Positions 43,101-46,100 of a stretch of DNA of 64,000 nucleotides are shown piece after piece. The first letter of the stretch is position 1, and each line of letters starts with the position of its first letter. Origin of the DNA: Owenia fusiformis (lineage: Eukaryota > Annelida > Polychaeta > Sabellida > Oweniidae); assembly GCA_903813345.2 (NCBI GenBank), contig CAIIXF020000005.1:6413375-6477374 (forward strand), read 5' to 3'. The translations under genes and the position numbers were made by a program. Below the pieces are notes generated by a model, which saw nothing but the letters and a program-made list of their open reading frames with translations, did no database searches and was not told the origin of the DNA.

Positions 43101-46100
43101 CAAACATGCTTTTATAGTAGGTCTCGACATCTCCTTTTGCCCTCATACTTGATGGGCCAGTGAGCGTTCTACTAAGGTCAGATGTCAAAGTCATTCTAGA
43201 TTAAAGGCAGAATCAGATATATGTAGGTGACAAAATTACAAGCAACATGTACAATTGACGTACTTATCTATTCCTTACAATCTCAAATACAATATCTCAC
43301 AAAATATTTACGATATGTTAGAAATTGATGAAGTTATAATAGATTAAAAGTGCAAAATTGTAAATAATAAGTAACCATTCTTATAGAAGAAATATACAAA
43401 GTCATTGTTGTAAACTCTTTAGTTTTCCTGAAATAAAGTGTGCAGTTTTGGGATTTGATGAAGTTATAATAGATTAAAAGTGCAAAATTGTAAATAATAA
43501 GTAACCATTCTTATAGAAGAAATATACAAAGTCATTGTTGTAAACTCTTTAGTTTTCCTGAAATAAAGTGTGCAGTTTTGGGATTTTTAGATAATAGACA
43601 TGAAAAGGAATGACGTAAGCCAGAAATATTCTAAAATTGAAACAATTTTTTTGTTAGACTACTTGCTAGATCCGATTCTCTCTTTAAATGTCAATATCTA
43701 GGTTTACGCGTTCTTTACCCTTGGTCTGAGATTCGACCCTTGATGAGGCATGATTAGGTGACCTGAAGTCAAGGTCATTCCTATGTAAAATATCAATATC
43801 TATGTATTTGGTGATTTAAAGTCATTTCGGCTGCTGTGACCCTTGGCAACCAACGATTAGGTGAACTGAGTTCAAGGCCAATGTAACTGGGTCAAGTTTG
43901 TTTCAAGATCAAAAATTAATATCTAAGTATTTGGCGTTGAAAGGACCTTGAGGGCTACAATGACCCTTGACGACACATGATTAGGTGACCTAAGGTCAAA
44001 GTCAATGTGTATTGGCCAACGTTATTTCAAGGTCACATCTAGGTACTAGTATCTGGCGTTTCACGAGGTTTCAACAAGTTCATCTCAATTCAAAAATCAG
44101 TCAAAGTCAAGTTATCAATACAGGTATTTTGCATTTTATGGAGGCTGCTGCTATATGGGGACCCTTCGTGATCCACTCGAACATGTAGATTTCTAGTATT
44201 TGTAAAGATGTATAAAAGTTAAAATGTATACTTTCCATGAGCTCCTATCGTTGGATTTAAATAAGGAGTATGATTTTAAAATTGGCTAGGTCGTGGTTAA
44301 AGGTACGTTCACACCAACGGCGAATGCCACGCTTTAAATCGGCGAGCAAAGCGCCGTCATTTTTGTCATTTTTCTTCATACCAACGGCGCTTTGATGGCG
44401 CTTTAAAGCGGCTTGTAAAGCGGCACCAAAGCGTAACAAAGCTTGATTAAATCGTCGGGGTCATAATAGGTCGTAGAAAAGCTCAGAGTAAAGCGGGATA
44501 TTCGGCAAGAGCGCCAAAAAATGTTAAACTTTTTAAAAAATTTGGGCGCTCTGTTACGAATCGATTAAGCGCCGAGAGCGTATCAAAGCTTAACAAACCG
44601 TAACAAAGCTCAGAAAAGCTTGATCCAAAGCGTAGGAAAGCTTAAAATAGCTCTGATAGGTTCCTCACGTTTTGACCAGGCTTTGTTACGCTTGAAATCA
44701 CGCTTTGATAAGCATTATTACGCTTTGATGCGATTATGACGCTTTAAATCGGGCTCTGATACGATTGCCAAGCTCTGTTGTGCATTGTTACGCTCTGTAA
44801 AGCTCTGTCACGCATTGGAAAATGTTGAGATCGCCGATTTCATGCCGCTTTTGATCCAATGACTATATAAAGATGCAGTAGATCCATAAAACCATTGCAT
44901 CTTTGACTCGAGAACACGATGGCAGAACAACAAGATCCAGAAATTCCAGATGGACCAGAGCATGACCTATCTGAATAAGACATGATGTTTGACGCACGGC
45001 GTGAAAGAGCGTGAGAGAGCATGAGGAAGCTTGTCAAGCGTAACAAAGCCTAACAAAGCGTTTCAATTCTTGATGTAAGCGTCTCAATTTGTTGGAAAGC
45101 TTGAGAGTCCTTCATGAAAGCGTAACAAAGAGTGTCAGATATTGATGAAAGCGTCTGCCCTCGTGTCAGATCTTCATGCCAGATCGTAACAAATCTTGAG
45201 ACATCTTAACGAAGCGTGTAAAGTGGTAACAGACCGTGAAGAGACTGGGGTCCCCGCTTTGAACCAAGCTCTGTTAAGCTTTCCTACGCTTTGGGTCAAG
45301 CTTTGCTGAGCTTTGTTACGGTTTTTTAAGCTTTGATACGCTCTCGGCGCTTTAATCAATTCGTAACAGAACGCCCAAAATTTTTAAACAGTTTAACATT
45401 TTTTGGCGCTCTTGCCGAATATCCCGCATTACTCCGAACTTTTCTACGACCTATTACGACCCCGACGCTTTAATCAAGCTTTGTTACGCTTTGGTGCCGC
45501 TTTAAAAGCCGCTTTAAAGCGCCATCAAAGCGCCGTTGGTGCGAACGCTTAAACAGTTTAAATTTTTTAGCGCTCTTACCGAATATCCCGCTTTACTCCC
45601 GAGCTTTTCTACGACTTATTACGACCCCGACGCTTTAATCAAGCTTTGCTACGCTTTGGTGCCGCTTTACAAGCCGCTTTAAAGCGCCATCAAAGCGCCG
45701 TTGGTGTGAACGTAGCTTAAGCAACAATAGTATGTTCGAAATACCGCTGTGTAATGCCCGAATACATTTCTGAACACAATACTCAATCGGCCGGGCGCCG
45801 TAGTGAAAATCGGAGCAAATGTGACCAAGACATAAAACAATCGAATAATACTGTATCAGTTTCACATTTACAGCGGTCAAAAGCATTCACAAAAAAACGC
45901 CAGAGTTGGCAATCATATAAAATAAAACCAATCCCACTGTGATTCAAAGAAATAACCAATTTACTGCATTGAGTTCAATGTTATAACCATGTCGATTTAC
46001 ATGAGTGTCCGATTCATTGTACCAAATTTAAACATTGACTGTTCTCCAGAAAGCAATAAGCTGACATATATCATATTTTACATTTTAATACAACTGAAAA

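Follow-up and report, generated by a model that had tools for sequence, protein, structure and literature searches.

A dispersed foldback element in Owenia fusiformis, probably a non-autonomous PIF/Harbinger-type transposon that retains the 5' end of its parent

The stretch analysed here, called the window below, covers 64,000 nucleotides of the annelid Owenia fusiformis (G000:C5:6413375-6477374), and genome searches were run over the 498 Mb of the assembly. The window contains two copies of a foldback element: copy 1 (1417 bp, plus strand) extends from A44301 to T45717, has both termini and is flanked by a TAA target-site duplication (44298..44300 on the left, 45718..45720 on the right), and copy 2 (1419 bp, minus strand), read from 63334 down to 61916, is flanked by TAA and TTA and stands close to a group of 99%-identical copies. 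As originally predicted, the two copies are inverted: 16.2 kb separate their closest matched arms, the matched pieces are 95–96% complementary and identity is 95.6% at ungapped positions. Copy 1 begins with the left terminal inverted repeat AGGTACGTTCACACCAACGGCG (44301..44322, plus strand), the last 21 bases of which were matched genome-wide, and ends with the right one, which reads AGCTACGTTCACACCAACGGCG inwards (45696..45717, minus strand); in both window copies, the terminal repeats read AGGTACGTTCACACC..., with AGCT or TGGT also found at the right end. Further inwards, the left arm (44380..44652, plus strand) forms an inverted repeat with the right arm (45267..45540, minus strand), at 94% over 274 bp. 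The right-end unit is a 165-bp direct repeat, its second copy (45517..45710) being offset by 165 bp from 45352-45545, and the number of such units varies, one locus (L002) having six right-type termini 165 bp apart. The arms are built of repeated words, another point on which the prediction was right: 21 words like GCGTAACAAAGC occur in copy 1 (counted on a stretch with its ends shifted by 1–2 bases) and 23 in copy 2 (up to two mismatches, both strands), versus a mean of 0.3 and a maximum of 2 after dinucleotide shuffling (200 shuffles per copy). RNA folding energies are -714.5 and -724.7 kcal/mol for the two copies, versus -362 to -393 in 12 shuffles, and the long, internally repetitive inverted arms are those of a foldback architecture. 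The prediction made no mention of a target duplication, of the 165-bp repeat at the right end or of the copy number given below.

Elsewhere in the window, another inverted repeat flanks copy 1 (38612-40042 and 47619-49040; three pieces, about 1.4 kb in total, 98–99% complementary), and an 858-aa frame (55059-57635, minus strand) resembles, by eye, a gypsy-type retrotransposon polyprotein. Three related frames (5394-5948, 19424-20089 and 37185-37775 (-); ILGIAGGS...CVVCTS) presumably resemble short-chain collagen C4-like proteins; for the one at 19424-20089, Pfam gave no match at E 0.001. Finally, tandem repeats with a period of 21 bp, open in several reading frames, occupy 1866-2795.

Between its word-rich arms, the element holds a word-poor segment that starts with an ATG. 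In copy 1, a TATA box (TATATAAA; 44864..44871, plus strand), around which a 38-base core was matched genome-wide, includes TATATAA at 44864-44870, and the ATG follows at 44919-44921, i.e., 55 bp from the first T, in agreement with the distance of about 50 bp noted originally. The CCAAT also reported there is present at 44856-44860 but ends only 3 bp ahead of TATATAA, a spacing unusual for a CCAAT box, so that it may be a chance occurrence. From the ATG, copy 1 has a short ORF of 19 codons, MAEQQDPEIPDGPEHDLSE, followed by a stop (44919..44978, plus strand; TAA at 44976-44978), and copy 2 reads MAEQRDPEIPDGPEHDLSEEDMTFVARRDIACENFQ... over 83 codons in an open frame starting MAEQRDPEIPDGPEHDLSEEDMTFVARR (62444..62695 including the stop, minus strand). 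The shared start MAEQ(Q/R) was thus correctly recognised; across copies, it typically reads MAEQ(Q/R)DPE(I/F)PDGP(E/D)HDLSE, and these N-terminal codons are common to divergent copies. A stop comes right after SE in 5 of the 42 aligned rows, copy 1 included, while many other copies continue with EEDM(M/T)FVARR...; of the 22 rows displayed from this alignment, 16 have an intact TATATAA and 19 an intact ATG. The segment from the TATA box to codon 19 is present in every aligned form of 1.0–1.6 kb, as well as in relatives of roughly 1.1 kb (L059, L060 and L065), and shorter derivatives (L062, L063) are devoid of the TATA/ATG part. Beyond codon 19, the codons are not conserved, with stops or frameshifts directly following in some copies. 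The distance from the ATG to the junction with the arm amounts to 103–109 codons, over which frame 0 was scored in nine copies (L002 was not scorable and L076 is absent from the alignment): six have 2–3 stops, versus shuffle means of 5.4–6.5, and L014, win1 and L059 have 6, 8 and 9, respectively. For the six open copies, equally open frames arose in 19–90 of 500 shuffles. The centre is therefore likely to be decayed coding sequence, a reading that is weakly supported. Within codons 1–19, the variant states by codon position (3, 3 and 6) are too few to show coding constraint, and the central reading of copy 2 matched no Pfam family above the cut-off and no solved structure in Pfam and PDB searches.

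The element is present at a few hundred dispersed places in the genome. Copy counting, proposed along with the original prediction, bears out a repeated element: the 21-base terminus has 478 matches (240 + 238) with at most one mismatch (none in the reversed control), the 38-base core of TATA box and leader has 281 (137 + 144) with three mismatches or fewer (none in the control), and the pattern spanning the junction of centre and arm has 93 + 109 (control: 0). The arm is present in all 100 junction matches listed, a pattern itself biased toward the arm, and the 19-residue start has at least 150 matches, of which at least 34 are identical over all 19 residues (best 150 of 302 candidates). To characterise the target duplication, the window and 32 fetched loci were passed through a script requiring both termini near the start codon (ends within 700 bp on the left and 950 bp on the right), which yielded 27 elements of 1252–1571 bp (a range set within these end limits), loci with one terminus missing or rearranged ends being excluded. 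The flanking 3 bp are identical in 21 of the 27 copies (9 TAA, 8 TTA, 3 TGA and 1 TAT), whereas shuffling the right flanks gave a mean of 9.4 identical pairs of 27 and a maximum of 18 (10,000 shuffles); the six copies with non-identical flanks include copy 2 of the window (TAA/TTA).

As for the age of the family, 22 copies form a group with a mean identity of 99.1% (98.4–99.9%), a figure that shows a young group and not the family average, because 19 of them were chosen from rows with similar scores. Five other full copies are 93–96% identical to copy 2, and a relic (L075) is 81–84% alike over its two longest pieces; since the sequence of the latter already extends into the right arm (up to c2 position 1109), the foldback architecture is itself old. 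Rearranged and miniature forms were also encountered, i.e., a 1531-bp inverted duplication (99.7%) with two truncated copies whose left termini stand face to face (L001, G000:C3:13182500-13188500) and mini-elements of about 100–115 bp (L064, L066, L069, L070), bounded by the related termini AGCTAAGTTCACACC or AGCTACGTTCACACC and often clustered.

A transposase-bearing parent or a donor gene was sought by several routes, and none was found among the matches listed. The transposase profile PF13359 has at least 150 matches (best 150 of 269 candidates), two of which (C2:148427 and C6:36190003) lie, by eye, less than 3 kb from listed copies. Both belong to another Harbinger, with termini GCCCCCCTCACATATG, inserted in the element. 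This separate Harbinger (termini GCCCCCCTCACATATGAACGAA), with its DDE transposase frames split, lies within two foldback copies at different positions (L033, G000:C2:146000-150000, with L002; L034, G000:C6:36188000-36194000), beside TTA/TAA-containing sequence; its GCCCCCC... ends abut foldback sequence, and at C2 the foldback sequence continues beyond the insert. At 20 further PF13359 loci (windows of about 4 kb), neither a convincing matching terminus (the one hit, in L053, has three mismatches) nor anything convincing from the finder of terminal inverted repeats (TIRs) was obtained, a weak negative because this finder, which recovered the known pair in L038, missed it in L036. A long pair of termini at C4:13559354/13565702 belongs to a copy split by an insert; the frames of this insert (804, 581 and 300 aa) resemble, by eye, those of a non-LTR retrotransposon (L035, G000:C4:13558500-13566500). 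Sixteen sites with odd termini, chosen from three listings (5, 6 and 5), are related, shortened or truncated elements, mini-elements of about 100 bp or a lone terminus, and have no frame above 121 aa. Two places with an open codon at the common stop are the old relic L075, with right-arm sequence, and an element beside a glutaminase-matching frame (L076). Ten places that were new to the earlier searches were picked by eye among the 100 exact matches listed, of 281, to the promoter core: eight continue as the element (one of them carrying an insert, read in L088, and another a short insert), and two near-identical ones (L081, L082) depart from it before the ATG, one of which, read on over 6.1 kb (L087), has a truncated element with its left terminus upstream and no frame above 89 aa. 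Finally, among nine junction places at which GGGGTCCC is not followed by C, five are point or one-base arm variants, with no parent among those five. We found no publication describing this element by title or abstract opening, which does not mean that it is unpublished.

The original prediction had also suggested comparing the centre with the arms, and the outcome depends on the copies considered. In a first analysis of 21 stretches (what remained of 48 once those sharing at least 97.5% identity with a retained stretch had been dropped), codons 1–19 showed 0.063 differences per non-CpG site, ranking 858th of 1363 windows (median 0.057). A lack of extra conservation in the centre is not the conclusion that we retain from this: the result was carried by the relic L075, which supplies 16 of the 57 mismatches, and by other partial rows, while three other sets of copies are less variable there. 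When L075, L076, L033 and L062 are left out, codons 1–19 drop to 0.031 (rank 205/1363), and in seven distinct near-full-length copies to 0.010 (rank 40/1363), versus 0.043 in the left arm and 0.052 in the rest of the right part. Variable non-CpG sites from the TATA box to codon 19, compared with the rest, number 4/104 vs. 168/1098 in these seven copies (Fisher p 0.0006), 14/104 vs. 257/1082 in 16 stretches (p 0.02) and 10/104 vs. 221/1088 in 27 near-full-length copies, not thinned (p 0.006), p values that are only a guide, since the copies share ancestry and the sites are non-independent, so that independence is overstated. Taken separately, codons 1–19 give p 0.32 (16 stretches) and TATA to ATG p 0.46 (27 copies). 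The most variable part is codons 20–33 (0.12–0.13, partly indels), and in an identity table of the 27 copies, mostly of one group, c2 601–720 stands at 98.6–98.9%, at the top of a range of 94.4–98.9%; the chimeric row L008-2447, which had inflated the variant counts upstream of the ATG, was left out of the rechecks of the centre. Altogether, the module that runs from the TATA box to around codon 19 probably evolves more slowly than the arms, even though this difference shrinks once older copies are considered and disappears if a single relic is added.

What, then, is the element? On sequence evidence, it is probably a non-autonomous PIF/Harbinger-type DNA transposon with foldback architecture, internally deleted but keeping the 5' end of its parent, a superfamily call made from the target duplication and the termini, as no autonomous parent was found. 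Its duplications agree with the 3 bp, typically TWA, of PIF/Harbinger (17 TWA, 3 TGA and 1 TAT among the 21 identical pairs). A foldback element of another superfamily, i.e., P/Galileo-like, piggyBac or Kolobok, would account for the long repetitive arms and the variable tandem units, which resemble those described in passages on Galileo (PMC3573991, PMC3688188); we nevertheless consider it very unlikely, as its duplications have 3 bp, instead of the 7–8 bp of the P superfamily and Galileo, and comprise TGA or TAT in four identical pairs (L018, L019, L024, L028), instead of the TTAA of piggyBac and Kolobok. For the last two, the TTAA target is obligatory. Different in kind is the reading, in line with the capture of a gene 5' end put forward in the original prediction, that the element acquired its promoter and first exon from a cellular gene before amplifying them. 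The word-poor ATG segment flanked by word-rich arms could be viewed in this way, and the central translation, with neither a Pfam nor a structure match, does not reveal a transposon protein either. Yet, the segment is found in full-length copies and in the 1.1-kb relatives alike, no open frame extends beyond 87 aa at the 19-residue start in the best 150 of 302 candidates nor beyond 102 aa in the best 150 of 452 of another search, and the matches that diverge from the element ahead of the ATG (L081, L082) lead, in L087, to a truncated element upstream. Since no intact donor gene outside elements appeared among the matches listed either (best 40 of 337, 150 of 302 and 150 of 452; 100 of 281), the capture of a host-gene 5' end gained no positive support, and we hold it to be quite unlikely; the putative promoter more likely descends from the parent of the element than from a captured host promoter.

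A related question is whether the segment from the TATA box to codon 19 is maintained, either by a cis need for mobility or by favourable transcription, in which case it could initiate transcription at its insertion sites. The lower variation in the three copy sets, the rank of codons 1–19 in the seven distinct copies and the number of displayed rows with intact TATATAA and ATG argue for it, as does a copy (L076, G000:C10:13159500-13161000) whose end lies about 165 bp ahead of a glutaminase-matching stretch (PF04960, E 5.4e-22) that has the same orientation as the element ATG. On the other side stand the poorer ranks of codons 1–19 in the larger sets (those with the relic and partial rows, but also the one freed of these four loci), their lack of distinction when taken separately, the shared ancestry of the copies, the stops and frameshifts straight after codon 19 and the possibility that misaligned words, or exchange among them, inflate the apparent variability of the word arrays. 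In our opinion, such maintenance is unlikely, although a purely passive passenger would not predict the lower variation; should the slower change hold with more copies, it would suggest either a function in cis or transcription of some consequence. An extension of the same idea, which we regard as highly doubtful, is that the family serves as a dispersed promoter kit, in which a few hundred hairpins, with their slower-changing module of TATA box, leader and 19 codons, would in some cases be transcribed, giving a start site and an N-terminal peptide to downstream exons, the copy ahead of the glutaminase stretch being a candidate example, or in which transcription would promote mobility.

Under the preferred reading, i.e., an internally deleted PIF/Harbinger-type element, an autonomous parent would have lost everything past about 105–110 codons of its 5'-proximal gene, and the right arm would have formed by inverted duplication of the left end, comparable structural changes being known in Galileo according to passages of PMC3573991. 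A Harbinger-type transposase acting in trans would recognise the termini and perhaps the word array, the GCGTAACAAAGC words being possible extra binding sites by analogy with Galileo, for which multiple transposase-binding sites are reported in part of PMC3688188. The TATA/ATG segment would be a remnant of the parent gene, consisting of its promoter and first codons, possibly with a cis role slowing its change. Hence the promoter remnant of an autonomous parent, the other suggestion of the original prediction, is plausible, even though no such parent was found among the matches listed, and the element probably still carries a putative promoter and the first codons of a gene of its parent element.

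Among known systems, the element is close to Tourist-like MITEs, i.e., non-autonomous PIF/Harbinger elements, with which it shares a 3-bp TWA-type duplication (tabulated as TWA for Harbinger in a section of PMC9033116), short conserved termini, many copies and no transposase. It differs from them by its 1.4 kb (1252–1571 bp in the 27 copies, vs. up to about 600–800 bp in the strict sense), its long word-rich arms, its TATA/ATG centre, the variable tandem unit at its right end and the lack of an autonomous partner among the matches listed; the MITE-like character originally predicted thus stands for termini, duplication and copy number, but not for length. With autonomous Harbingers, which generally produce 3-bp target duplications (in the relevant part of PMC9179366), the duplication is shared, whereas neither window copy encodes the DDE transposase or the Myb-like protein of such elements, the centre being without Pfam match. 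With Galileo and the Foldback-type elements of Drosophila, the likeness is architectural only: passages of PMC3573991 describe long, internally repetitive arms, inverted internal segments that lengthen the TIR and tandem units varying in number, along with a target duplication of 7 bp, vs. 3 bp here. For the most part, this is an ordinary mobile element. It is also a clear case of a non-autonomous element that appears to retain the promoter and first codons of its parent alongside long repetitive arms, and its combination of a Harbinger-type target site with a Galileo-like architecture lets one ask whether word arrays bind transposase.
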